This document shows positions 27,225 to 41,223 of a stretch of 47,744 bases of DNA, piece by piece. The stretch comes from a virus. Location of the stretch: the IMG/VR virus record IMGVR_UViG_3300034283_000349, positions 1 to 47,744 of that record. One strand, given 5' to 3'. How positions within the stretch are numbered: the first letter of the stretch is position 1; each line of letters opens with the position of its first letter. The notes beneath the pieces are model-generated. The model did not search any database. It was not told where the DNA came from and was given only the letters and a program-made list of their open reading frames with translations. A program made the position numbers and the translations under genes.

Positions 27225-27809
27225 TTATTTTACCACCGTCCCAATCTCCTGTTCTAGTTGGCGGATGTAGTGATCTTTGTCTATTTTGACAAAGGGTTTA
27301 TATTTCTTTACCAAATGCGCGAAGTCATTCCAAATAAAATCATTCGATAAAGAACTATAGTCGGTATTATCTATTATACCTATTTTTGCCAAAATAGCAA
27401 TAGATTCTAGAGAAATCTTTTTACCAAGATACATTTTTAATACTTTAGGATGTTGCCCATTAATTACTTCGAATGGGTCTCCGTCTGCATAAAGAGTTTG
27501 GATATCCTGTTTAAAAGTATATCCCAATTTCTGCATGCGTGTTTGCCATTCTGCATAGACATCATTCGCCTCTGTATCAAACACACCACCCCACTGATTC
27601 CCAGAAACAAAATTAGCAACTAGAAAATCAATGATTTCAGTTTTTGTTTTTGTTTCTGCCAACTTTCGCAACGCAAATAAGTCTTTACGTTTCAGAAATG
27701 CTTCTCTGGAAACCTTTACCCCTTTACGGGATTTGGTGATATCAAAATCAGGTCGAGTGAAATGTAATCTCAACGAGAGATACAATTGATAAACTTTATA
27801 AGAGTCCAT
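27225..27809 (-). CDS. 59: Helicase loader gp59
   Basis: The product has 194 aa (T4 gp59: 217). Family pattern: YKVYQLYLSLRLHFTRPDFD, then KFxxR-like KRKDLFALRKLA, and LVANFVSGNQWGGVF. gp59 binds fork DNA and gp32 and loads the gp41 helicase onto gp32-coated lagging-strand DNA. The gene overlaps the gp33 stop codon by one base and precedes the small 54-aa gene and gene 32, the same syntenic block as T4. It is probably transcribed from the promoter inside the SleB gene (28179-28207). Confidence 0.92.
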   Translation of the reverse strand: MDSYKVYQLYLSLRLHFTRPDFDITKSRKGVKVSREAFLKRKDLFALRKLAETKTKTEIIDFLVANFVSGNQWGGVFDTEANDVYAEWQTRMQKLGYTFKQDIQTLYADGDPFEVINGQHPKVLKMYLGKKISLESIAILAKIGIIDNTDYSSLSNDFIWNDFAHLVKKYKPFVKIDKDHYIRQLEQEIGTVVK

Positions 27810-28072
27810 CAGAGAGGCAGAATCCCATCATCGTTTTTCAACATGTTGAGTTGTTGTGCCTCGACTCGAATTTTTTCTTTTAGTGATGAACTAATAAGAC
27901 CAGCAACAGAACTAACCTCAATATTTCGTTTCTCACAATAGTCAATGAGAATATCCATACAGGGTGATCTAGAGTCTCTTGCAAGTTTTTCAATAAAGAT
28001 GGAAAACTCTGCTGCTGTCTTAAATTGCTTTGTAATCAAAAATTCATCAGTTACTGGAATTTCTTCCGTCAT
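27809..28072 (-). CDS. 33: Late transcription co-activator gp33
   Basis: The product has 87 aa (T4 gp33: 112). FLITKQFKTAAEFSIFIEKL, SPCMDILIDYCEKRNIEVSS and a hydrophobic-acidic C-terminus (NDDGILPL) are typical of gp33 in T4-like marine phages. gp33 attaches the sliding clamp to RNA polymerase and, with gp55, activates promoters of the TATAAATA type seen at 20803-20796. The adjacent gene 59 overlaps by one base. A sigma-70-like promoter about 100 bases upstream (28207-28179) would allow expression before the late phase. Confidence 0.9.
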   Translation of the reverse strand: MTEEIPVTDEFLITKQFKTAAEFSIFIEKLARDSRSPCMDILIDYCEKRNIEVSSVAGLISSSLKEKIRVEAQQLNMLKNDDGILPL

Positions 28073-28075
28073 AAT

Positions 28076-28696
28076 CTATCCTGCGTAAAAAATATGTCTA
28101 CCGATTTTAGTAACTCTCTGTAACTTCCAACCTGGACTAACATAGTCAGCATGGTAGAATAGAACGTTACTATTAACTACTATACGCGTATTGATCTCAG
28201 AAGTCAATACTTTTTTCGCAATATCTTTTGCTTCAGCATATAATACTGGGTCTTTGGCAGGTCGACGCATACACGTCCAACTGAACTGACAGACCCTACT
28301 TGTTCTCTGATAAACGACAGAGCAAACGTTTGATGGATATTTTGGATTGCGAACTCTATTTAAAGTTACACCTGCAACCGCGATTTTACCCTTTCTGGGT
28401 TCATTACCTGCCTCGTAGTAGATGTTATCTGCTAGACAAGTTATTGCTGCAGAATTTTGTGACAGGTATTTTTGTTTTTCTTTTTTAACGTTTTTTTGTA
28501 TGATTTCTTCTTGTTTTTGTAAAATTTCTTGGTTTTGTCGTTTTACGCTTTCGACTTTCTCATATCCACCGACAGTGTATTCCATTGCGGTGTCTTCGAT
28601 TCTTTCTTTTGCATAACTCAATGATACACAATATATTACAATTACCACTAAAATTGAAGAAAGAATTTTCAATGTCTTCTTATTAAAGGAAGGCAT
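28076..28696 (-). CDS. SleB-type cell-wall hydrolase with N-terminal membrane anchor
   Basis: The product has 206 aa from the ATG at 28696, which has an AAGGAA ribosome binding site; a longer TTG-started reading (28768) is less likely. Residues 8-30 (LKILSSILVVIVIYCVSLSY) form a membrane anchor or signal-anchor, followed by a Lys/Glu/Gln coiled coil (about 40-75). The Hydrolase_2 domain at about 85-205 shows CLADNIYYEAGNEPRKGKIA, VAGVTLNRVRNPKYPSNVCS, VCQFSWTC and NVLFYHADYVSPGW. SleB domains are lytic transglycosylases that open peptidoglycan glycan strands. It is a plausible endolysin of signal-arrest-release type, although it sits among replication genes. No holin is evident in the window. 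Confidence 0.85.
   Translation of the reverse strand: MPSFNKKTLKILSSILVVIVIYCVSLSYAKERIEDTAMEYTVGGYEKVESVKRQNQEILQKQEEIIQKNVKKEKQKYLSQNSAAITCLADNIYYEAGNEPRKGKIAVAGVTLNRVRNPKYPSNVCSVVYQRTSRVCQFSWTCMRRPAKDPVLYAEAKDIAKKVLTSEINTRIVVNSNVLFYHADYVSPGWKLQRVTKIGRHIFYAG
28179..28207 (-). promoter_or_regulatory. Sigma-70-type promoter before gp33-gp59-gp32
   Basis: TTGACT at 28207-28202, a 17-bp spacer and TATAGT at 28184-28179. It lies inside the SleB gene, with a start expected near 28172, 100 bases before gene 33. The same TTGACTT-type -35 occurs at six other sites in the window. Confidence 0.6.
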
Positions 28697-28799
28697 CTCT
28701 ATTCCTTGGATTGTTGAACTGGAGAGAGGATTAACCAGTGACTCCCTACACTGGGCACTTTTTTTCAAAGGTGCATTATATTTAGGGTTTAAAGACTCC

Positions 28800-29197
28800 C
28801 AATAGTCTCTGTTTACCGTTGATTTAGAACGGTTGGCGGTTTATTCTGTTTCGAGGGAAACCGCCGAAAACCCAATGCTAGCTTATGCAGCTAGAGCAAA
28901 GGCAACGTTATCGTTTGCATTTACAGTTTGTGGCGCTTTGCCAGTCAATCAGTCTCGGTATTCCTATTACACGAAAATCGAATTCCAATGTCACCCCCAT
29001 CAACAAGAAACTCATCTTGGCACGTGCCGCAGCAAAAATCATCTTCTAAAATACGTGCTCTTAACTCTTCTCGATTAGTATACTGAGAGTCACGTATATC
29101 ACGACAACTGCATATTACCATAAATTTCCTCTTGGTGGAGGTGGAGGGAGTCGAACCCTCGTCTTTCCGCTTTTATTGTCAACTGTCAACAACTGAT
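28800..29197 (-). ncRNA. ssrA: Circularly permuted, two-piece tmRNA (alphaproteobacterial type)
   Basis: The acceptor piece comes first: a T arm (GAGGG-TTCGACT-CCCTC) and a 3' end CACCTCC-ACCA whose last base is 29133. After a 134-base intervening segment the coding piece begins at 28998 with GGGGGTGACATTGGAATTCG, like the tmRNA 5' end GGGG(C)TGA...GGATTCGA. The acceptor stem pairs 7/7 (GGGGGTG with CACCTCC, one G.T at position 3 as in E. coli). A P2-like helix forms between TTTTCGT and GCGGAAA. The tag frame at 28918-28883 reads GCA AAC GAT AAC GTT GCC then TTT GCT CTA GCT GCA TAA, giving ANDNVAFALAA. It is followed by the CTAGCT/AGCTAG stem and a GGCGGTTT/AAACCGCC stem (28864-28834). CCA is encoded. 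The 5' end fits the promoter at 29232-29204; the 3' limit is approximate. It rescues stalled ribosomes and tags their products for proteolysis. Confidence 0.95.
28945..29121 (-). CDS. Possible Bfd-like [2Fe-2S] mini-protein nested in the tmRNA gene
   Basis: The ORF encodes 58 aa, starting MVICSCRDIRDSQYTNREEL and containing FCCGTCQDEF at residues 29-38. It has a strong AGAGGA ribosome binding site 5 bases before the ATG. The CxC (4,6) plus CxxC (31,34) arrangement resembles bacterioferritin-associated ferredoxin (Bfd) domains that hold a [2Fe-2S] cluster, although the spacing (24 residues) is shorter than in typical Bfd (about 31-33). Residues 1-40 are encoded by the segment between the two mature tmRNA pieces; the rest overlaps the first 54 bases of the coding piece. 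tmRNA processing would destroy this mRNA, so expression must come from the unprocessed precursor. The motif and RBS are seen; the function is inference. Confidence 0.5.
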   Translation of the reverse strand: MVICSCRDIRDSQYTNREELRARILEDDFCCGTCQDEFLVDGGDIGIRFSCNRNTETD

Positions 29198-29203
29198 ATA
29201 TTA

Positions 29204-29232
29204 TTTATACTATAGTTTTGGTCAGAAGTCAA
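29204..29232 (-). promoter_or_regulatory. Promoter of the tmRNA gene (sigma-70 type, overlapping a late octamer)
   Basis: TTGACT at 29232-29227, a 17-bp spacer, TATAAA at 29209-29204. The -10 continues as TATAAATA (29209-29202), so the same site could serve both host sigma-70 and the phage late sigma. The TGA stop of the nuclease gene is contained in the -35 box. Expected start is near 29197. Confidence 0.8.
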
Positions 29233-29906
29233 GCCAAATAATAACCATTTTCATAATAATCACGAGTTCGAAGCAATTCTTTCGCCCAGTTGTCTCGCTT
29301 CTCGATAAACACCTGAGGTTCATCACCCTCGACTGCAATAAGAACTACCAACCACGGAACAGGAATACCAGTTCGTTCTTCATACATGATTGCATATGCT
29401 GCAGTCTGCATAAAGTATGAACTGATATGTTCTTTCTTTTTAGGTTTGCTAGATGTCTTGAAGTCGATGACTGCTCGGAGACGGTTATAATCGGCGATAC
29501 AGTCTACGCGACCTGCCATACGAAGGTGGTCACTATAGAGCGCAAGTTCTTGGCAGTGAATATCGCCAATCGAGTCGAGAACAGGTTTGAACTTCTTGAA
29601 CATCTCAACGTCAAGCAGAGATGCTTTCGTAGTTGTATACGCTTCTTCTAAATCTTCGTTCTTAAGATATGATTCAGTTAATGAGTGAATCTTAGTTCCA
29701 CGAGTTGATGCTTTGTTCGAGATCTTATTCGCTTCTTCTTCACCAACACGTTTTCGCCAAGCAGCGATTCCATCTCTGGATAGAACCCCGAGAACAGTGG
29801 TAGCAGAAGGATACGCTACACCAGAGGCATTAACGTAAACTCTGCTACCATCTTCGTTCGTAGTTGATTGTGCGAAATCTTCATAGTCATATATCGTCTT
29901 AAACAT
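29229..29906 (-). CDS. PD-(D/E)XK exonuclease, MGME1/Cas4-like
   Basis: The product has 225 aa. The N-terminus has VAYPSATTVLGVLSRDGIAA, then WRKRVGEEEANKISNKASTR and GTKIHSLTESYLKN, typical of phage RecB-family nucleases related to mitochondrial MGME1. The active-site core is MAGRVDCIADYNRLRAVIDF followed by KTSSK, giving the D...(D/E)xK pattern as D...DFKT. QTAAYAIMYEERTG is the conserved QxxxY motif. It likely trims single-stranded ends in recombination or replication. A strong promoter (29940-29912) lies so close that its transcript would start at about 29905, at the ATG, with no room for a Shine-Dalgarno; leaderless translation is possible. Confidence 0.88.
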   Translation of the reverse strand: MFKTIYDYEDFAQSTTNEDGSRVYVNASGVAYPSATTVLGVLSRDGIAAWRKRVGEEEANKISNKASTRGTKIHSLTESYLKNEDLEEAYTTTKASLLDVEMFKKFKPVLDSIGDIHCQELALYSDHLRMAGRVDCIADYNRLRAVIDFKTSSKPKKKEHISSYFMQTAAYAIMYEERTGIPVPWLVVLIAVEGDEPQVFIEKRDNWAKELLRTRDYYENGYYLA

Positions 29907-31965: not shown

Positions 31966-33393
31966 TTAAAAGACCTTTACCTTGTAAATTCCTTCGAACA
32001 TTGCAGCATCTTTTTCATCATTTACCATCGGAAACCCTTTAATGTTCAGACTAGTATTAAGTAACATGGGGCAACCTGTTTCTTCATACCATCGTGTCAA
32101 CAGTTTAAATAATCCTGGATGCTGCTGCTCGTTTACAGTTTGGACGCGAGATGTGCCATCAACGTGAATGATAGCAGGGAACTTTGTAGGAAATTTACAT
32201 CTTGCAGTAAATTGCATGTAAGGGGATACTTCAACTGGCATGTCAAAATACTCTGCTGCATGTTGCTCAAGGATGACTGGTGCGAATGGTCTAAACTTTT
32301 GTCTGCGCTTGATTGCATTTACTCTGTCCTTAATGTCTGGTCTAGTTGGATCGGCGAGGAGACTTCGGTTACCGAATGCTCTCGGACCAAACTCTGCTTT
32401 TCCATTAGCAACACCCACTATACCCTCTTCTTGTAAAGAAGTCAATAGATTTTCTACAGGATATTCAGTATCAATATTTTCACCGAGATATGGACCTTGC
32501 CAATTAAGTTTTCTACGGTTGTTTGCAGCAATAGCACCAAGAGAACTACCAGCGTCTCCTGGATTTGGAATGATCCAAACATTCTTGAAGTATTTCAACG
32601 CGATATGATTCGCAGAGCAGTTAAGCGCACAACCTCCTGATAACACTAGGTTATTTTGTAGAGGGTCTATTTCCTTGGCACGACGGAGCAGTTTATCGAA
32701 TTCTTCTTCATAAATCTTCTGCGCAGAAGCAGCAAGGTCATAATGATCAGGATCTTCGTTTTTCATCCACCACTTGCAACCACGATGCAAATTAGTTCGC
32801 TCGTATAGTTCGCGCATGTCCCAATAGTGCTTATTGGGATTACCATACGCTGCCATGCCCATGAGGATATACTCATCTTCGTTTGGTTTCAATCCAACTC
32901 TGTCTGTTATGGCGGAATAAAACAATCCAAGAGATTTCGGATAATCCATACTCCACCTTTTCTTAAGAGTTTCATCAGCACACAACCAAATAGATGCTGT
33001 GTCAAATTCACCGATAGCATCTATTACTAGAGCAGTCGCAGATTCAAACTGAGAAGTATAAAATCCTGCTGCTGCGTGAGATTCGTGATGCGACGCAAAT
33101 TCTACAGGAACTTGTAGACCAAATTCATCTTCTAGATAGCGCCGAACACTGAAACGAACTAGTCCTTGCCCCGAAAGTAGTCTACGCATTGCTCGTAATT
33201 TTGGTTTCTCATACCAATGTATTTTTTCTGGTTTACCGAACTGCAATGCTGCATTAATAAGATCAGTATTCAGATGCTTATCGTTCTTCACTCCGCTATA
33301 CCGTTCTGCGCTTGCCGCGAATAGGATTTCTCTGCCACTGACAACAGTCAGAGCAGCATCATGCGCACCCGCAGAGATCCCCCACTCAATCAT
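31966..33393 (-). CDS. Carbamoyltransferase, NodU/CmcH/TobZ family
   Basis: The product has 475 aa, shorter than typical members (about 550-600). Motifs: GISAGAHDAALTVVSG (nucleotide/metal site of the Kae1-like domain), FASHHESHAAAGFYTSQFES with the conserved histidines, VLSGGCALNCSANHIALKYF, and GKAEFGPRAFGNRSLLADPT. The C-terminal YrdC-like transfer domain is compact and ends with LLNTSLNIKGFPMVNDEKDA. The enzymes use carbamoyl phosphate and ATP to carbamoylate hydroxyl groups of sugars, antibiotics or nucleosides. It follows the radical-SAM and SGNH genes by 68 bases and may modify the same product, but the acceptor is unknown. Phage relatives could act on sugars or DNA bases. Confidence 0.9.
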   Translation of the reverse strand: MIEWGISAGAHDAALTVVSGREILFAASAERYSGVKNDKHLNTDLINAALQFGKPEKIHWYEKPKLRAMRRLLSGQGLVRFSVRRYLEDEFGLQVPVEFASHHESHAAAGFYTSQFESATALVIDAIGEFDTASIWLCADETLKKRWSMDYPKSLGLFYSAITDRVGLKPNEDEYILMGMAAYGNPNKHYWDMRELYERTNLHRGCKWWMKNEDPDHYDLAASAQKIYEEEFDKLLRRAKEIDPLQNNLVLSGGCALNCSANHIALKYFKNVWIIPNPGDAGSSLGAIAANNRRKLNWQGPYLGENIDTEYPVENLLTSLQEEGIVGVANGKAEFGPRAFGNRSLLADPTRPDIKDRVNAIKRRQKFRPFAPVILEQHAAEYFDMPVEVSPYMQFTARCKFPTKFPAIIHVDGTSRVQTVNEQQHPGLFKLLTRWYEETGCPMLLNTSLNIKGFPMVNDEKDAAMFEGIYKVKVF

Positions 33394-33461: not shown

Positions 33462-34313
33462 TTAATTTTTTGTATTAATGATTTTATCATACAATTCCTC
33501 TGCAAATAATACATGCGCTATCTCGGGTGGATGTTTAAACCCGCACGGAGGTGATTCCGCACAGTGCCTCGATTCGGTATACCTAGTAAACAAAGATATG
33601 TTTGGGTCGATACAACAATCTAATATCCTTTGAAACATTTCCTTGAATGTCGGCAAATATTGCCAATCAAAATACATGTCTGCAAACATATTGCCATGCT
33701 TTGATTCTGGGTCATTATAAAAAAGAAGTTCTTTTGGGAAAACTGGTTGCATATAAAAATCGAAATTATTTACAATGCAAAAATTCTTAAAATTTTGTAA
33801 CGCAAACAGATATGTTTGCATGACTTTATAGTCATTGTAATGCATGTCGCTATCTTGAATCGAACGGTCGCTCATAACTCTCGATACAGGTACGCCTGTT
33901 TTTTCTGGTGTAAAGGACAAGTATCTATGCGGTGATGTTATTCCCAAAAAGATTAGGTCTGTTTTCGGATTTAATTTCGCGGTATAGTAACCCCGAAATA
34001 AATCTAGTAACATATGATCCACTGCAGATCCAGGTATAGAATAATTAACATGCTCTAGTCCAAGTTTATCTGCCAATTTAGCAGCATAACTTCTTTTTGA
34101 AGAAGCATTAATATACTCTTTGGACGTCATCTTACCTACACGAGAAACATAGTCTTCAAACTTATGTATTGGTTTTCTATCAGCAATCCACTGATGTTTC
34201 ATTTTATTACACTCATCAAAACTGACCCCAAGTAATTCATGGTCTATCAATTCTGCTCCGGAAGTAAACGAACACCCAAAGGAAATTAATCTTGTTTTTC
34301 CATCAAGTTTCAT
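33462..34313 (-). CDS. SGNH-hydrolase-like protein
   Basis: The product has 283 aa from the ATG at 34313, which overlaps the upstream stop as ATGA; the longer reading is unlikely. Block I is RLISFGCSFTSGAEL (GCSFT with the candidate Ser). YAAKLADKLGLEHVNYSIPG corresponds to block II with a Gly, and LIFLGITSPHR to block III, although the usual GxND Asn is replaced. The C-terminal GFKHPPEIAHVLFAEELYDK carries the block V His. SGNH proteins are esterases or acetyltransferases acting on sugars and lipids. It is tied to the radical-SAM operon and may trim or transfer an acyl group on its product. The enzyme may be atypical because of the altered block III. Confidence 0.7.
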   Translation of the reverse strand: MKLDGKTRLISFGCSFTSGAELIDHELLGVSFDECNKMKHQWIADRKPIHKFEDYVSRVGKMTSKEYINASSKRSYAAKLADKLGLEHVNYSIPGSAVDHMLLDLFRGYYTAKLNPKTDLIFLGITSPHRYLSFTPEKTGVPVSRVMSDRSIQDSDMHYNDYKVMQTYLFALQNFKNFCIVNNFDFYMQPVFPKELLFYNDPESKHGNMFADMYFDWQYLPTFKEMFQRILDCCIDPNISLFTRYTESRHCAESPPCGFKHPPEIAHVLFAEELYDKIINTKN

Positions 34314-35455
34314 TTTCTGTGATCTTTTGTCATTGGTCTTGGATTTTCTACTTCCTTCCCATCCAAAAATGAAAATAGACTGTTTCGTAAATCTACGCAC
34401 TGTTTTCGCATTTTACCATCTTGGGGTAAAGAAGGTATCTCAGCGTCATACAATGCAATCACTTCTTCGAGTTCTTTCCGTGACATATTATGACACGCCA
34501 TGTGGTCGGGATAATACAAGTAGTTGAAATTTAATGGGTTTGAATTAGTAAATCGCACATATTGATTCAATATTTTGTAAAGGGGAATTGCATCTCTTAC
34601 GTTCATCTTACTTACCGTCATGACAATCGAGACGTTTGATGTGTGTAAATCGAATTCTTTTGATATAATTTCTTCTTGACAATATTTTAAATTATCTAAA
34701 ACTTGATCCCACTTAGCACCCACTCTTAGTTTCTCGAACTTATCGCCATAAGAATCTATACTGAAGGATAGAATAATTCCTCTGAATTTTTTCCAGATGT
34801 CAATTTCTTTTCTGGTGGGTCTTTGCGTTCCATTTGTATTGTATAACAATATTGTTTTTTCTGGATTCGGTAATTGATCCAACCACTCAAAATGTGTCTT
34901 GTTCATTAGTGGTTCGCCACCTGCGATATCAATTCTGAAATATCCAGTTTCACCAGGATTCAATTTTTTATACTGTTCTACATCATAAGACCAAGCAATC
35001 TCTTCGTTTAAACGATCGTATGTATACCTGTCCAATTTTCCTTCGCGTAAGAGTTCGGTTGCAATTGCAGTTGAACATGCAGGAGTGCATATTGTGCAAC
35101 GGAGATTACATAACCTTCCAGTTTTTAACTGTAAATACTCAAGAGAAACTTCTTCAGGTGGTGTTAGCATTGTTCCATTATGCAACATCCACATATCTTG
35201 TGTTCGTTTACTGTCTCGCCCTTCTTCCTCCGCGAATTTACATTGGTTGCAACCGCTCGGCCAAATACCTTGCGATAACTGGTCACGATATTCCTGGAAT
35301 TCTTCTTGCAGAATAGTCTCTGCATTTTCTATATCCACAAGTTTGCTTTTTTTGTCTTTTTTGTGAATGAAAAGACAGCATGGAGTTAAGTAACCATCAG
35401 TGTCAACATGCACCGATTTCCACATGGACGGACAATAAATTTTAGTTTCGCTCAT
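34310..35455 (-). CDS. Radical SAM protein 5 of the cluster (twitch/SPASM-like)
   Basis: The product has 381 aa from the ATG at 35455, which shares ATGA with the upstream stop; an in-frame TTG lies 15 bases earlier. The radical-SAM cluster is CNLRCTIC (Cys at 116, 120, 123). IDIAGGEPLMNKTHFEWLD is the GGE motif for SAM binding, and FSIDSYG follows. Before the core is a Cys-bearing N-terminal module (SETKIYCPSMWKSVHVDTDG, then LTPCCLF and CNQC) that probably holds an auxiliary iron-sulfur cluster, placed at the N-terminus instead of the usual C-terminal SPASM position. Substrate unknown. It is the last radical-SAM gene in the operon order and precedes the SGNH gene. Confidence 0.88.
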   Translation of the reverse strand: MSETKIYCPSMWKSVHVDTDGYLTPCCLFIHKKDKKSKLVDIENAETILQEEFQEYRDQLSQGIWPSGCNQCKFAEEEGRDSKRTQDMWMLHNGTMLTPPEEVSLEYLQLKTGRLCNLRCTICTPACSTAIATELLREGKLDRYTYDRLNEEIAWSYDVEQYKKLNPGETGYFRIDIAGGEPLMNKTHFEWLDQLPNPEKTILLYNTNGTQRPTRKEIDIWKKFRGIILSFSIDSYGDKFEKLRVGAKWDQVLDNLKYCQEEIISKEFDLHTSNVSIVMTVSKMNVRDAIPLYKILNQYVRFTNSNPLNFNYLYYPDHMACHNMSRKELEEVIALYDAEIPSLPQDGKMRKQCVDLRNSLFSFLDGKEVENPRPMTKDHRK

Positions 35456-36741
35456 ATTGACAAATACCAATCTCTTACCTCTGGGTCAATAATTGCAGTT
35501 AGACTCTCAAAGGTATGTTTCCCTTGAAGAAACTTTTCTCTATATTGCCAGTTTCTCTTCATCAGTTTTAACATTTCCGTATCCGAATAAATTGGATTGT
35601 TGCTTTTGTCCAATTTATACGATTTTAATATTGCAATCGTTCTTTCTTTTCCTCGCAAGGAACACTCTTCAAACCGTTTAATGGCATGGTCAATTATTCT
35701 ATCAAAAATATGTTGAGGGTATAATCGAATATCTAAAAACCCTTGTTGAGTATCTTTATTAATATGATTGAATAATTTGTGTGAATGGAGTTCAGGATCA
35801 TACGGTTCATAAAATTCAAACCATCTGTCAATATCCATAAGAACTGGCGCAGACATAACACTAGAAAGACCAAATTGGTTTCTTTCGTTTAGTCTAGAAT
35901 GGTATTCTTTCCAATTAATAGAAACTGTTTCCCAGGATGCACCATCTCGGCAAAATTCAAAAGTTTCATGCGTCCCATCTAGACTTGCCTGTATACTTGG
36001 TTGATAAAATTTCAGAAGATCAGGTATAAGTTTTCCCTTCCAGTGAAGGCGTGTTAGATTGGTGTTATAATGAATAAAGATATTATATAAAAATGCAGGT
36101 TCTTCGGATTGAATCTCTAATAATTTCTCAACAACTTTCCAATGCACGTGAGACATCATTGGTTCGCCGCCAGCCCAATAAATCTTCGTCAATCTTCGCT
36201 GGTCTAGGCACTCAATAATTTCTTGTGCCATAGAATCTTCAAAATCATAATCTATGACGAATTCTTTACCAGTCGCCCACATTTTAGGTCGCTGTCCCCA
36301 CATATCAGCGAACAGTGAAGCATGTTTAGAACTGTAGATGCTGCCACAACTTAAACACTGCAGATTACAATGTATGGTTCGATAGTCAAAATATGTAGGA
36401 AGTTCTGTGGTAGAACCATCTTCATTGGTTTTGCTTATGGTTTCAGCAATTATTTCTTCTTCGCTCTGTTGACCCTTCCAACTCTGTTGACGCAAGGATT
36501 GAATGTTCTGGTCTTCGTTTTTATAACAGACTGAACAGGCATCAATCTTTTCTCCTGCTATCATCTTTTTTCGAACATCTTTCATTACAGAAGAATTCCA
36601 GAAGTCCTTGGTTTCCGTCTTTTCTTCCGAAACAATGTCATCTGATATACAGCAAAGTTTTCGCTCGTATTGCGATCCGATGTAACTATGATCCCATGGA
36701 TATTTACAAATACTTTTATTATTTTCAGTATTGATAGTCAT
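35452..36741 (-). CDS. Radical SAM protein 4 of the cluster
   Basis: The product has 429 aa. The cluster motif is HCNLQCLSCGS (Cys 125, 129, 132); KIYWAGGEPMMSHVHWKVVE is the GGEP motif. The N-terminal module has SICKYPWDHSY, KLCCIS and ACSVC, again a possible auxiliary cluster. IQASLDGTHETFEFCRDGAS corresponds to the S(L/I)DG substrate strand common in peptide- and sugar-modifying members. Its first 17 bases overlap the upstream gene and its stop overlaps the downstream start (ATGA), indicating coupled translation and matched amounts. Confidence 0.88.
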   Translation of the reverse strand: MTINTENNKSICKYPWDHSYIGSQYERKLCCISDDIVSEEKTETKDFWNSSVMKDVRKKMIAGEKIDACSVCYKNEDQNIQSLRQQSWKGQQSEEEIIAETISKTNEDGSTTELPTYFDYRTIHCNLQCLSCGSIYSSKHASLFADMWGQRPKMWATGKEFVIDYDFEDSMAQEIIECLDQRRLTKIYWAGGEPMMSHVHWKVVEKLLEIQSEEPAFLYNIFIHYNTNLTRLHWKGKLIPDLLKFYQPSIQASLDGTHETFEFCRDGASWETVSINWKEYHSRLNERNQFGLSSVMSAPVLMDIDRWFEFYEPYDPELHSHKLFNHINKDTQQGFLDIRLYPQHIFDRIIDHAIKRFEECSLRGKERTIAILKSYKLDKSNNPIYSDTEMLKLMKRNWQYREKFLQGKHTFESLTAIIDPEVRDWYLSI

Positions 36742-37918
36742 AATTGAATATATCTTTCCACGGACCCATTTTTCTACTTAGTTGAACAACGTCTAAGTAT
36801 TTATTGCCTTGTTGCCAATGCAAATCGTTTTGCGATTCAACACGAAGATAAGATTTCATCGTTTCCGTTAGAATCCAATTTGAGTATGGCGACTCTTCAT
36901 AGAGTTGCGTTAGATCTTTCTTGAATTGTTTAGAGGCACAATTTAATGAAAGGTAATCGGGAAAGACAATAAAGTTTTGGTTTATTGTTGTGTGGGGTTT
37001 TAATTTGGTCAAAGGGACTGCCCACTCATAGAACTCTGGAAGAAATGGTGCATTCAACCATTGTATACTACATGTAATATTTAATGCCGCAATATGTGGA
37101 TTTTCTAACAATTTTCTAATATTTTCATTCGACCTATCCCAATCATTCGGGTAACGAATAAACTTGTTCTTATCTCCGACTGCATCCATGCTACAACCAA
37201 GAGTTACTACCTTAAAGTGTTTCCAGTAATCACTAAACGATTCATCATATGTGGTGCAGTTTGTATTATAACTTATGTGAATATTTTTAGCGACATCCCA
37301 CTCAATCAATCTTTCGAGCAATTTCCAATGCATTGGCATAATGAACGGTTCGCCGCCATTAATATACAAGTATTTTAGCGAATCTTTGTGTTCGTATAAC
37401 TGATCGATAATATCCTCATTGAACCATTGGAAATTATCAAAGTCAGATACATTTTTTGTCATGAATGGTAGTTGATCAGACCATTCTTTATAGTCAGTAA
37501 CAAGAGAAGAACTAGAATCTGGGTAACACATCAAACACTTTAAGTTACAAAGATTGCTCAGGCGAATATCCAGAAACTCCAATTGAGGTTTCTCAATATT
37601 TTCCCATCGGTTATTCTCCGTTATCCGACGAGACTTCCCACCATGTTGTTCAATTTTATAACACCCCTCGCATGCGGTGGGATATTTGTGATCGAGCATT
37701 TCTTCTCGAACTTTATTAACAGAATAACTATTAAAAATATCATTTATAGTGTGCGTTTTAAGATTGAGCATTCTTCCATGTTCATCTTTTGCAAACCCAC
37801 TATCTGGTCCATTCATCTTAGAAACGCAACAAATAGAAACGTTTCCGTTCGGATGAAGATTCATGTGATTGAACGGCAGGGCACAATACCCGTCATTTCT
37901 TAAAGAGTATTGAACCAT
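36725..37918 (-). CDS. Radical SAM protein 3 of the cluster
   Basis: The product has 397 aa. Cluster motif LCNLKCLMCYP (Cys 124, 128, 131) and LYINGGEPFIMPMHWKLLER (GGEP). The N-terminal module is GYCALPFNHMNLHPNGNVSI followed by CC, then CEGCYKIEQHGG, the layout of twitch-type radical SAM proteins seen in T4-like phages. LGCSMDAVGDKNKFIRYPND is the substrate-proximal strand. Overlaps the upstream gene by 19 bases and the downstream gene by 17. Confidence 0.88.
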   Translation of the reverse strand: MVQYSLRNDGYCALPFNHMNLHPNGNVSICCVSKMNGPDSGFAKDEHGRMLNLKTHTINDIFNSYSVNKVREEMLDHKYPTACEGCYKIEQHGGKSRRITENNRWENIEKPQLEFLDIRLSNLCNLKCLMCYPDSSSSLVTDYKEWSDQLPFMTKNVSDFDNFQWFNEDIIDQLYEHKDSLKYLYINGGEPFIMPMHWKLLERLIEWDVAKNIHISYNTNCTTYDESFSDYWKHFKVVTLGCSMDAVGDKNKFIRYPNDWDRSNENIRKLLENPHIAALNITCSIQWLNAPFLPEFYEWAVPLTKLKPHTTINQNFIVFPDYLSLNCASKQFKKDLTQLYEESPYSNWILTETMKSYLRVESQNDLHWQQGNKYLDVVQLSRKMGPWKDIFNYDYQY

Positions 37919-39237
37919 TGTAAAAACTCCTCTGGGAATACATCAATTGGTTTATTTCTACGAGCACTATATTGAGAATAGAACTTTTTAAAATCTTTGC
38001 GATTCTTCTCAAGATCAGTATCGTAAGAATGCGGTGTTTCAATAATATTCACATAAGAAATCAATCGTTTAACATCGCTTCTCTCTGTGAATGTAAGATT
38101 TGGATTGTTGCAATTATCTTCATACCAATCAGAAAGTTGTTGGTGCGATTTTTCTCTCAGAGCATCAGGCAAAACTGTTAAACTTTGAAATGCGGGAAAC
38201 CGCAGGAAATTGATACTCATACTAATACGATTTCGATATTTCTGTTTCCATACCATAACTTGATTCATGAAATCGGTAATATTGAATAGGCACAATGCGT
38301 TAATAGTCATCATAACAACAATGCGCTTGACGTTAGATTCCCCCAAAATCCGCTCAACATTATCACACCAGGATTCATAATCCAACCCATCGCGAATATA
38401 CTCTGCTTGCGCACCCGTAGTTTCCATACTTGTGAATATAGTAAGATTATTAATATCGTGCGACCTCTCTATCAGTCTATCGATAATAGATTTCTTTGCA
38501 CCAAGGTTACTATTGATTCCCAATTCGAATTTGTATTTTTCTTCTGCGAACAGATCGATGAGTTTCCAAACATCTGTACTCATCAGCGGTTCGCCGCCTG
38601 TGACCCTTAGTGTGCGAAGTTCTTTACTAAGTTCTGGCCACCATTCCCAAAATGCCTTGATGTATGGATTTTCTGATTTCTCGTGACAATTATTTGTAGT
38701 GCCATCATGCTTGAATGCTCCACCACCTGAAGTTTCGAGGTCATAATGTCCATGCTTCTTTATATCTCGTTCCCAAGTCGTACTAAAATTGGCATTACAA
38801 TAACTGCACGCAAAGTTACATGTTCTATCAAACATAACTTCTAATGTGGGCGGAATAATACGAGCATCTGCTGGTGTATCGAACCAAGATTGCATTTCTT
38901 CTGGTGTAAACTGCAATGACTTAAAAACACGATCTGAAATATAATCAGAACCCATGCTCTCAATTTTCCAACAGTAGTCACACTCAGAAGGTTTATGTCC
39001 CTCTTTCATGAGTTGGCGCATTTTTATTTTATGGTCAGTATTATGCAGTTTTGCAGGATCTGATAAAATCTGCTCTGGATCTATTTTATGAACAGGAGGA
39101 AGATGGCAACTGCTAGTTTCTCCGCTGTTTAACCACAGAGTGCTATTTCCCCATTTCGCACCACAAAACGATGCAGATTTAGAATTTAGTATACTGTTTC
39201 TGAATTGAAGTAATCCGTCATCCATAATAGTCATCAT
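37900..39237 (-). CDS. Radical SAM protein 2 of the cluster (paralogue of protein 1)
   Basis: The product has 445 aa. Cluster CNFACSYC (Cys 140, 144, 147), TLRVTGGEPLMSTDVWKLID (GGEP). The N-terminal module ASFCGAKWGNSTLWLNSGET, then SSCHLPPVHKI and ECDYCWKIESM closely parallels the neighbouring gene 39218-40642, so the two arose by duplication. The SGETxSCHxPxxHKI signature with the CDYCWKIE pair suggests an auxiliary metal site. Two further ATG/near-start options exist (MMTIM), the first overlapping the upstream gene by 20 bases. The substrate is unknown. Confidence 0.88.
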   Translation of the reverse strand: MMTIMDDGLLQFRNSILNSKSASFCGAKWGNSTLWLNSGETSSCHLPPVHKIDPEQILSDPAKLHNTDHKIKMRQLMKEGHKPSECDYCWKIESMGSDYISDRVFKSLQFTPEEMQSWFDTPADARIIPPTLEVMFDRTCNFACSYCNANFSTTWERDIKKHGHYDLETSGGGAFKHDGTTNNCHEKSENPYIKAFWEWWPELSKELRTLRVTGGEPLMSTDVWKLIDLFAEEKYKFELGINSNLGAKKSIIDRLIERSHDINNLTIFTSMETTGAQAEYIRDGLDYESWCDNVERILGESNVKRIVVMMTINALCLFNITDFMNQVMVWKQKYRNRISMSINFLRFPAFQSLTVLPDALREKSHQQLSDWYEDNCNNPNLTFTERSDVKRLISYVNIIETPHSYDTDLEKNRKDFKKFYSQYSARRNKPIDVFPEEFLQWFNTL

Positions 39238-40642
39238 CCATCAAATATGCAAGTTCTGGGAAAGTATCAACGAATGATGTTTTCCTGCGTTTATCTAAAC
39301 TGCGAGTGTAGTTCCTGAAGTCTTTATACAAAGACTGTGATTCTTTTGTCGATCTCATGTAGTCGACCAATCGTTTTACTTGGTCAACTTCTTCTAAATA
39401 AAATGTTTCTTGAACAGACTTTTTCGAAGTCAATTTATGTTTGTCGATATAATCTATCCACAAATCGCCATACTTCTGTTTATCTTCATCTGACAATAAT
39501 GTTAAGCACAGCATTCGAGGCCAGCGAAGATAAGACAGATGAGTTCTTACTCTGAATTCATGTATCTTACTATAATACTTCAATCGCATTTCTCTGATAT
39601 ACTCTAAATATTCCAGGAGAGTTGGTGCGCTTGTTAAGTTTATTGTTGTCATGTAATGTAATCGTGTTGTATTCGGCGTATTATCTAGAACATATTTACA
39701 GTTCTTTTTGAACTCATCAAATTGCATACCAAATCTAGAATACTCAGCATGTTTACCAGTACTTTCTAATGATGTGTATACGTCAAACAGTTTAATATTG
39801 CAAGAGATTCTATTGATGTATTCCACTAATTTCTCAACCAATTTATCTGGAACATTGAGATTAGTATTAATCGCGAGTGTCAAATTAGGATTTGGGTTCT
39901 CCGCGATATAATCAAGAACTCGCCAAGTATGTTTACTGAGCAAGGGTTCGCCGCCAGTTATTCTAAACGTATGTAAATTCGGATAGAGGTCAGGCCACCA
40001 TTCCCAGAAAGCATCGATATATGGGTTTTGCTCTTTGCGATGGATTGGAAGTTTTCCAACTTCCTTCAACCATCCAAGATCGTGTAATTTGAAATCTTCC
40101 AGTTCGATTGGACCATGCGTTTCGATTTCTTCTTGCCATCTTGAAGAACTTTCTGGACTACAGTAGACGCACTTAAAATTGCATGTTGACTCAAACGCAA
40201 CTTCTAGATACGATGGATCGATATTCGCCCCATCTCCAGATTCGACAATTTCATCAATGTGCGGGAGCGCCCACGAATACGTAGATTTGTATATCCGATC
40301 GCTCATCCAATCTTTATTTAGATTCTCAATTTTCCAACAATAATCACATTCTTTAGTTTGTACGCCATTAAGCATGTCGATACGTGCTGCTTTTTTAACA
40401 GCAGTATTGTGAATACCTCGTGGATTATCTTTAATATCTTCTAGTGTAATCTTGTGTCGTGAAGGGTGGTGACAACTATGTGTCTCGCCACTATACAAAA
40501 GAATGGTTGACTGTTTCCATTTTGCTGCACAAAAAGATGGACTAACTGCGTTGATTACTTCTCGTTTTTCTTTGAGAAAATTCCAGTATGAATCTACTGA
40601 ATGGACGTCTAGATTATGCTCTTCGTGTGCACCATCACTCAT
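39218..40642 (-). CDS. Radical SAM protein 1 of the cluster (paralogue of protein 2)
   Basis: The product has 474 aa. Cluster CNFKCVYCSPESSSRWQEEI (Cys 154, 158, 161) and TFRITGGEPLLSKHTWRVLD (GGEP). The N-terminal module is PSFCAAKWKQSTILLYSGET, then HSCHHPSRHKIT, and ECDYCWKIENL, matching protein 2. The substrate strand is FDVYTSLESTGKHAEYSRFG, equivalent to FTSMETTGAQAEYIRDG in protein 2. It begins within ATGA shared with the methyltransferase stop. It is the largest member and first in transcript order. Confidence 0.88.
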   Translation of the reverse strand: MSDGAHEEHNLDVHSVDSYWNFLKEKREVINAVSPSFCAAKWKQSTILLYSGETHSCHHPSRHKITLEDIKDNPRGIHNTAVKKAARIDMLNGVQTKECDYCWKIENLNKDWMSDRIYKSTYSWALPHIDEIVESGDGANIDPSYLEVAFESTCNFKCVYCSPESSSRWQEEIETHGPIELEDFKLHDLGWLKEVGKLPIHRKEQNPYIDAFWEWWPDLYPNLHTFRITGGEPLLSKHTWRVLDYIAENPNPNLTLAINTNLNVPDKLVEKLVEYINRISCNIKLFDVYTSLESTGKHAEYSRFGMQFDEFKKNCKYVLDNTPNTTRLHYMTTINLTSAPTLLEYLEYIREMRLKYYSKIHEFRVRTHLSYLRWPRMLCLTLLSDEDKQKYGDLWIDYIDKHKLTSKKSVQETFYLEEVDQVKRLVDYMRSTKESQSLYKDFRNYTRSLDKRRKTSFVDTFPELAYLMDDDYYG

Positions 40643-41223
40643 TTTTTATAACCCACTGCCATGTATCTATAGAAATGTCCACACTTCAACATACCTGCAT
40701 ATTGTGGATCTTTAATGTTGTTGATTTTTAAGAATTCCTCTAGACTATTAGCAAGACGAACATGCTCAGGATTTTCTAGATTATTTCCTTGGACGATATA
40801 TTTAGTCGTGCTAGGAATAGAGTCCCACCAAGCATCGTAAACTTCTTGCGTAACATGCTCGCTGCTGGTATTGATCACCAGATCGGGATGTATGTTGATT
40901 GGCATACCATTTTTCATGTCATGTTGACGAAAGACAATATCGTGATAACACTCGTCGATAGCAGCGAATACATGCCTACAACTAGAATCTAAATCTGTGG
41001 TTAGAATTCGGGCATCTGGAAATTTATGTGCAATAAACTGTGCAAGAACTCCATACCATCCACCGAAAATTACGATAGATCGATCCATTGGAGTTACGTG
41101 TTCAAGCAACCATTTCTTACTTTCGATCTGACTCGGCCAAAAGTTTTCCGAGAAACGATATGCATTATCTGGATTATTACGGATATATTGCATCCATAAC
41201 ATTACAACATCAAAATTAACCAC
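40639..41223 (-). CDS. Class I SAM-dependent methyltransferase-like protein
   Basis: The product has 194 aa from a GTG at 41223 with GAGGA just upstream. It overlaps the previous stop by 8 bases; an ATG 21 bases later is the alternative. Motif I is SIVIFGGWYGVLAQFIAHKF (GGWYG replaces the usual GxGxG), and ARILTTDLDSSCRHVFAAID carries the acidic SAM-ribose residue. LVINTSSEHVTQEVYDAWWD lies at the motif IV position. This style of small methyltransferase occurs in marine phages. As first enzyme of the radical-SAM operon it may methylate the same product; SAM binding is inferred. Confidence 0.75.
   Translation of the reverse strand: MVNFDVVMLWMQYIRNNPDNAYRFSENFWPSQIESKKWLLEHVTPMDRSIVIFGGWYGVLAQFIAHKFPDARILTTDLDSSCRHVFAAIDECYHDIVFRQHDMKNGMPINIHPDLVINTSSEHVTQEVYDAWWDSIPSTTKYIVQGNNLENPEHVRLANSLEEFLKINNIKDPQYAGMLKCGHFYRYMAVGYKK

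Follow-up and report, generated by a model that had tools for sequence, protein, structure and literature searches.

A phage two-piece tmRNA gene with a predicted microprotein gene nested in its intervening segment

A permuted tmRNA gene in a relative of phage Melnitz

The window, by which we mean the whole 47,744-nucleotide stretch analysed here, is a 47.7-kb IMG/VR virus record (IMGVR_UViG_3300034283_000349) from a virus of water bacteria. Pfam and PHROGs matches to gp32, gp59, gp33 and baseplate genes mark it as a T4-like phage. Its nearest isolate by gp32 (60%) is the Methylophilales (OM43) phage Melnitz, and sequence comparison identifies the window phage as a relative of Melnitz, with which it shares the gene order PhoH-nuclease-tmRNA-gp33-gp59-gp32-curli-FecR-cyclase. 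The tmRNA gene follows a PD-(D/E)XK exonuclease gene, a conserved partner of this locus that stands in the same order in Mosig, Melnitz and locus L464. A SleB-type hydrolase gene is inserted between the tmRNA and gp33 in the window; Melnitz and Mosig have none there.

ARAGORN makes a single call across the tmRNA locus, a permuted tmRNA on the minus strand (28792-29227) with the tag ANDNVAFALAA. At the Rfam gathering threshold, tmRNA_permuted (RF04321) matches 29194-28883 with 90.4 bits (E 3.3e-16; cut-off 47) and alpha_tmRNA (RF01849) matches 29236-28835 with 59.6 bits (E 4.8e-14; cut-off 50), the latter scoring best of its clan. The original prediction, which had read the locus as a permuted two-piece tmRNA with an ANDN-type tag and had proposed alpha_tmRNA as the model to run, is upheld by these matches, as is its placing of an alphaproteobacterial-type tmRNA on a T4-like phage. 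Every part that it had listed, namely the T arm, the CCA, the coding piece, the 7/7 acceptor stem, the tag and the TTGACT/TATAAA promoter, is present on the minus strand; what it overlooked was the strand and a small ORF in the space that separates the CCA from the coding piece. The order along the transcript is promoter, T arm, acceptor 3' strand with ACCA, intervening segment (IVS), coding piece, tag and 3' hairpin (Table 1). A RAGATH-19 match at 28794-28870, which scores 24 bits where the cut-off is 85.6, was dismissed as chance.

Table 1. Positions of the tmRNA locus, its nested gene and neighbouring features (window coordinates except for the last row).
Feature	Position	Strand	Basis or remark
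PD-(D/E)XK exonuclease (phrog_298), upstream neighbour	29229..29906	minus	Pfam, PHROGs
Promoter: TTGACT (29232-29227), 17-nt spacer, TATAAATA (29209-29202)	29202..29232	minus	sequence
tRNA-like acceptor piece	29133..29194	minus	ARAGORN, Rfam, acceptor-stem covariation with coding piece
T arm	29160-29144	minus	within acceptor piece
Acceptor 3' strand CACCTCC	29143-29137	minus	discriminator A at 29136
Encoded CCA	29135-29133	minus	
IVS, 134 nt	28999..29132	minus	predicted to be removed from the mature tmRNA
Shine-Dalgarno-like GAGGAAA	29125..29131	minus	directly 3' of CCA; 5' arm of terminal helix
Nested small gene (predicted), 58 codons + TGA	28945..29121	minus	ORF, selection, homologues
mRNA-like coding piece, starts GGGGGTGACATTGG at 28998	28835..28998	minus	ARAGORN tag, Rfam alignments
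Acceptor 5' strand GGGGGTG	28998-28992	minus	
Tag frame ANDNVAFALAA, stop TAA	28918-28883	minus	ARAGORN
3' hairpin with CAGAA motif	end at 28835	minus	coding piece
SleB-type cell wall hydrolase (PF07486), downstream neighbour	28076-28768	minus	Pfam, PHROGs
gp33 late-transcription coactivator	27809-28072	minus	Pfam, PHROGs
gp59 helicase loader	27225-27809	minus	Pfam, PHROGs
Five radical-SAM-like ORFs	34310-35470, 35452-36741, 36725-37918, 37900-39237, 39218-40642		by eye
Melnitz nested ORF, inside annotated SsrA gene	L260 3341-3505		Melnitz, MZ577097

The acceptor stem (GGGGGTG/CACCTCC, seven of seven paired) spans the break between the two pieces and contains a G3-U70 pair. In relatives it takes the forms GGGGGCG/CGCCTCC, GGGGGTG/CACCTCC, GGGGATG/CATCTCC, GGGGCTG/CAGCTCC and GGGCCTG/CAGGTCC, and this joint change of the two halves argues strongly that the two-piece RNA works. 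A tag frame with resume codon, stop and hydrophobic end is likewise present in the window and conserved in relatives. Such conservation bears on the idea that the phage RNA acts as a decoy and inhibits the tmRNA of the host, as a tag-less form of the tmRNA of mycobacteriophage DS6A is reported to do, according to a citation in PMC11915505. Beyond that precedent, a decoy would fit our failure to find an SmpB gene in 12 records of related phages, some of which (several) exceed 90 kb; however, a full tag frame ending in ALAA, the resume region and the G3-U70 pair are kept across relatives and would be needless in a decoy, which we regard as extremely improbable. Since no SmpB was found in these 12 records, the phage tmRNA would have to use that of the host. 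The suggestion that the tag could name the host was not borne out: a degenerate pattern for ANDNVAFALAA, which does not cover every choice of codons, matches nothing in 84,980 species genomes, so the tag names no host, and the looser pattern ANDNVA retrieves other tags, mostly from Bradyrhizobium.

The nested relative L208 is reported under beta_tmRNA rather than alpha_tmRNA. ARAGORN tags with extra leading residues (AANDN, VAANDN, VAVNDN and ARLKVTANDN) occur in L013, L029, L062, L102 and L208, and some of them may be miscalled resume codons.

The second promoter box, TATAAATA, doubles as a match to the T4-type late-promoter sequence. Among the matches listed it lies 5' of the CCA in 93 of 130 ORF-bearing tmRNA genes and 45 of 87 others, compared with 6 and 1, respectively, for TATAAAT in a shuffle control, and its spacing in relatives is near-constant, mostly 76-77 nt before the end of the CCA.

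Phage two-piece tmRNAs as such are already known. A 2022 publication reported them in marine T4-like phages, namely for Melnitz, for Mosig and in viromes; 53 of 133 unique phage tmRNAs were predicted to be two-piece, and 50 of those 53 came from marine or aquatic samples (PMC9004378). The unusual part of the present locus is the nested gene.

The intervening segment and its reading frame

The two ends of the IVS (29132-29122 and 29013-29003) base-pair with each other to form a terminal helix, which is followed by TGAT. In the window, acceptor stem, junction and terminal helix fold as one hairpin (-50 kcal/mol, z -4.74), and none of 200 shuffles of acceptor stem plus IVS gave an equally stable fold. 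Among the matches listed, the terminal helix has a median length of 12 bp with at most one mismatch and reaches at least 6 bp in 98% of ORF-bearing IVSs versus 10% of shuffles. It covaries across the clusters of nested proteins described below: in a sample of one IVS per cluster, with three to five pair types per position, the ten outer positions are 92.8% paired versus 63.5% (maximum 70.3%) after 5' and 3' arms have been exchanged among IVSs. The final TGAT, which faces ACCA, is near-invariant (214 of 221 among the matches listed), partly owing to the search pattern.

The IVS of the window is occupied by an ORF that runs for 41 codons within it (29121-28999) and for another 17 codons into the tmRNA coding piece, where it ends at a TGA (28945). 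Its predicted product is MVICSCRDIRDSQYTNREELRARILEDDFCCGTCQDEFLVD, the part within the IVS, followed by GGDIGIRFSCNRNTETD. At least eight distinct versions of this ORF-type IVS exist (the window, L006, L008, L026, L030, L090, L208 and L293). Changes within the family, over all pairs, number 106, 84 and 295 at the first, second and third codon positions, with a median dN of 0.036 and dS of 0.393; the window compared with the divergent nested L208 gives 9, 6 and 22, and an earlier comparison of five versions had the same third-position bias. By these substitution patterns the nested ORF evolves like a protein gene, with a dN/dS of about 0.1 and change mostly at third positions. In the window, the Shine-Dalgarno (SD) sequence and the start codon are predicted to be paired, and in L026 the SD core is broken, so translation of the nested ORF might be weak.

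Cysteines C4, C6, C31 and C34 (plus C30) are invariant in the microprotein family, a CxC...CxxC pattern that suggests metal binding. Pfam gave no match above the cut-off for the nested microprotein, Shisa_N falling below it, and a PDB sequence search returned chance matches only. For a possible kinship with Bfd-like [2Fe-2S] proteins, hhalign against an approximate E. coli Bfd query gave a probability of 9%, which is not significant, and the AlphaFold2 model (pLDDT 51.7) was unusable. In L100-L106 and L201-L207 the tmRNA is directly preceded by a free-standing homologue of 50-55 residues, and the IVS of these loci is a plain hairpin or 9 nt long. Neither the window ORF, the free-standing form nor the 38-residue family described below had a tblastn match in isolated phages. 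The simplest history that these arrangements suggest is relocation between the IVS and the adjacent upstream site, in either direction.

Most of 80 loci found via the neighbouring nuclease contain a permuted tmRNA, and their IVSs differ strongly even among near-identical phages. The nucleases of L003 and L005 are 99% identical to that of the window, yet both loci have a plain 67-nt hairpin IVS, which indicates that the nested gene is dispensable; the same 67-nt IVS recurs in the more distant tmRNA of L028. Identical or near-identical ORF-less hairpin IVSs of 64-122 nt occur in clearly different tmRNA genes in four pairs of loci (L003/L028, L020/L154, L022/L029 and L027/L100). This distribution implies that IVSs travel between phages, and judged by sequence the IVS behaves as an exchangeable cassette.

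Nested reading frames in related phages and comparison with known systems

Melnitz (Methylophilales phage EXVC044M, MZ577097; PMC9004378) has a two-piece alphaproteobacterial-type tmRNA at the same locus as the window. Its IVS holds an SD sequence and an unannotated 41-codon in-frame ORF with the predicted product MFKWLSKTRLVVITRDYFRERNRKADAKIPKYLSGTRSVYD, arranged as a 19-nt leader plus 123 nt of frame. The two phages differ in the tag (ANDNYVPVDYALAA in Melnitz versus ANDNVAFALAA), in the nested protein (MFKWLSKTRLVVITRDYF... in Melnitz, unrelated to that of the window) and in a glutamine riboswitch that follows the Melnitz tmRNA, whereas RF01739 has no match in the window at the gathering threshold, nor at E 10 in 28600-29300. 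In relatives of Melnitz an in-frame 24-nt insertion keeps the ORF open, and in L275-L278 the ORF is closed by its own stop within the IVS. With 49-codon and self-terminated versions in existence, the notion of a fixed length of 41 codons was dropped. The tmRNA of the Pelagibacter phage Mosig (SsrA, MT647606), also permuted, follows the same nuclease gene and precedes gp33, but its tag is GEDNFALAA and its IVS, a hairpin of 44 nt, contains no nested gene.

Two scans of IMG/VR, aimed at permuted tmRNA genes whose IVS is long, yielded at least 172 unique IVSs. Because the scans selected long IVSs ending in TGAT-GGGGG, the following figures describe this selected sample rather than all phage tmRNAs. 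The matches listed and the earlier loci include 185 IVSs with a length of 118 nt or more, and in 132 of them a single ORF takes up at least 70% of the segment, where shuffles lead one to expect a mean of 26 and a maximum of 36; nearly all of these 132 unique IVSs come from IMG/VR. Of the 132 ORF-bearing IVSs, 80 have an SD core within their first 9 nt, versus 3 of 74 others (among the matches listed). All 16 loci tested with Rfam, chosen mainly as ARAGORN misses, proved to contain a permuted tmRNA.

Under a looser cut (IVSs filled to at least 60%), the nested proteins of the matches listed form at least 50 clusters, at least 18 of them with several members, for which 15-18 families is the better reading: the two-member cluster L292 is a hairpin-type IVS and the two-member cluster L428/L461 reads the 38-residue family in an alternative frame, so that neither is probably a separate protein. 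The long IVSs of L497, L501 and L348 contain GC-rich chance ORFs and were left out of the families. The largest cluster, with at least about 50 unique IVSs, has as its predicted product a membrane-like protein of 38 residues, MKNPLVREVSKWMFKAYIVWSICADITLLAGIIYLVFF, and stands in the order nuclease-tmRNA-gp59-gp32 in the one locus inspected; another family is Pfam DUF6356 (E 2.8e-8). Codon-position bias leans to synonymous change in the well-sampled clusters. In the multi-member clusters among the matches listed, 73 ORFs stop at the TGA of TGAT, 8 earlier, and 35, including the window and Melnitz types, read on into the coding piece. Judged by these sequences, small genes nested in the IVS are widespread in related phages.

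These data bear on another account of the locus, namely an ordinary phage tmRNA that helps or re-specifies ribosome rescue, as first proposed, with the spacer ORF as a passenger that yields no product. The tmRNA is indeed conserved with or without an ORF, and the same lineages include hairpin IVSs that lack one. A productless passenger, however, should show neither third-position bias nor low dN/dS, nor the enrichment of SD sequences and open frames, and we consider this account very unlikely.

Cellular alphaproteobacterial permuted tmRNAs (RF01849/RF04321) share with the window the permuted order, the encoded CCA, an acceptor stem across the break and an ANDN-type tag. Alphaproteobacterial host IVSs are short, about 25-35 nt, with a median of 24 nt in 64 parsed genes listed, a sample biased to Bradyrhizobium in which a few Bradyrhizobium genes lacking an encoded CCA are misparsed; no ORF was seen in the IVSs of these 64 genes. 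Two alphaproteobacterial loci among about 160 matches listed (L539 and L540) have long, repeat-like IVSs with no ORF filling the segment.

Group I introns of tmRNA genes hold nested protein genes, namely homing endonucleases, and thus likewise place a protein gene in the removed part of a functional RNA. Here, in contrast, there is no intron, splicing or endonuclease, and the spacer of a permuted gene would be excised without religation. The open-access literature searched yielded no description of a protein gene nested in the excised portion of a tmRNA gene. A tRNA-Ala and a repetitive element are the only contents of permuted-tmRNA IVSs that a 2025 tmRNA database paper notes as unusual (PMC11915505). 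They too carry extra cargo, but this is an RNA gene and a repeat, whereas the cargo of the window type is predicted to be protein-coding and recurs in phages.

A proposed shared transcript and shared hairpin

We favour, with a probability of roughly 0.78, a reading in which a phage two-piece tmRNA gene uses its excised spacer as a second, protein-coding gene, one transcript giving both a microprotein and a tmRNA by way of a shared hairpin. One transcript from the upstream sigma70/late promoter would comprise the acceptor piece, the small gene and the coding piece. Acceptor stem and terminal helix would combine into a single long hairpin that keeps the two halves of the tmRNA joined for cutting, presumably at the CCA and at GGGGG, and that also buries the ribosome-binding site, its SD sequence lying in the 5' arm. 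The small gene would then be translated from the precursor, mainly from nascent RNA before the 3' arm emerges or from opened RNA. Such a compact unit would yield a tmRNA, acting with host SmpB, and a Cys-rich microprotein of 41-58 residues. With the stop of the window ORF inside the coding piece, translation and processing of one and the same molecule would conflict; for the window and Melnitz types, full-length translation would thus preclude processing and the reverse.

The frame of the window also runs through the acceptor 5' strand, and the SD sequence lies within the terminal helix in most ORF-bearing IVSs. Both features could serve a switch in which ribosomes open the helix and the acceptor stem, thereby allowing or preventing cutting, the ORF being mainly a regulatory leader. 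For a mere leader, though, purifying selection on amino acids in differing clusters, DUF6356 among them, would be needless, and tightly related phages manage without an ORF; we hold this version to be doubtful.

Another possibility takes its lead from the length of the frame. As excised, the IVS would be a non-stop mRNA with a frame of 41 codons, on which stalled ribosomes would be rescued by the newly made tmRNA; the microprotein would receive ANDNVAFALAA and be degraded, its level thus being tied to tmRNA maturation. The IVS consists of an 11-nt leader plus 123 nt in the window and 12 plus 123 nt in L208, so that the frame ends at a codon boundary, and it is open across the cut site in all members of the window family; Melnitz (19 plus 123 nt) and its relatives with the 24-nt insertion hold the frame as well. 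Against this, the stop lies inside the IVS in most multi-member clusters, and L275-L278 have their own. Self-tagging is thus not the general purpose of nested ORFs, and we judge it unlikely.

The co-transcribed microprotein slot, with predicted translation and tmRNA maturation sharing one hairpin, is the most likely reading of the sequences compared here. More tentatively, at somewhat less than even odds, we extend it to T4-like aquatic phages at large: their IVS would be an exchangeable slot for microproteins, filled by many unrelated genes with the ribosome-binding site often in the helix, and translation and maturation would be coupled, perhaps to mutual exclusion.

If translated, these ORFs would amount to a hidden set of phage microproteins, one of them in the isolated phage Melnitz, which annotation misses because the tmRNA call covers them. 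They would allow a direct test of one RNA as both structured-RNA precursor and mRNA, and of what a phage gains from linking a small protein to ribosome rescue.

Two further regions of the window were noted. The segment 42579-47634 encodes a cyclase with a membrane sensor domain, a curlin-repeat protein, FecR and another repeat protein, arranged as in the curli-type operon of Melnitz. Between 34310 and 40642, five large ORFs have CxxxCxxC-type, radical-SAM-like motifs, as judged by eye; by the same criterion a methyltransferase-like ORF (40639-41223) adjoins this run, as does a carbamoyltransferase-like ORF (31966-33393).
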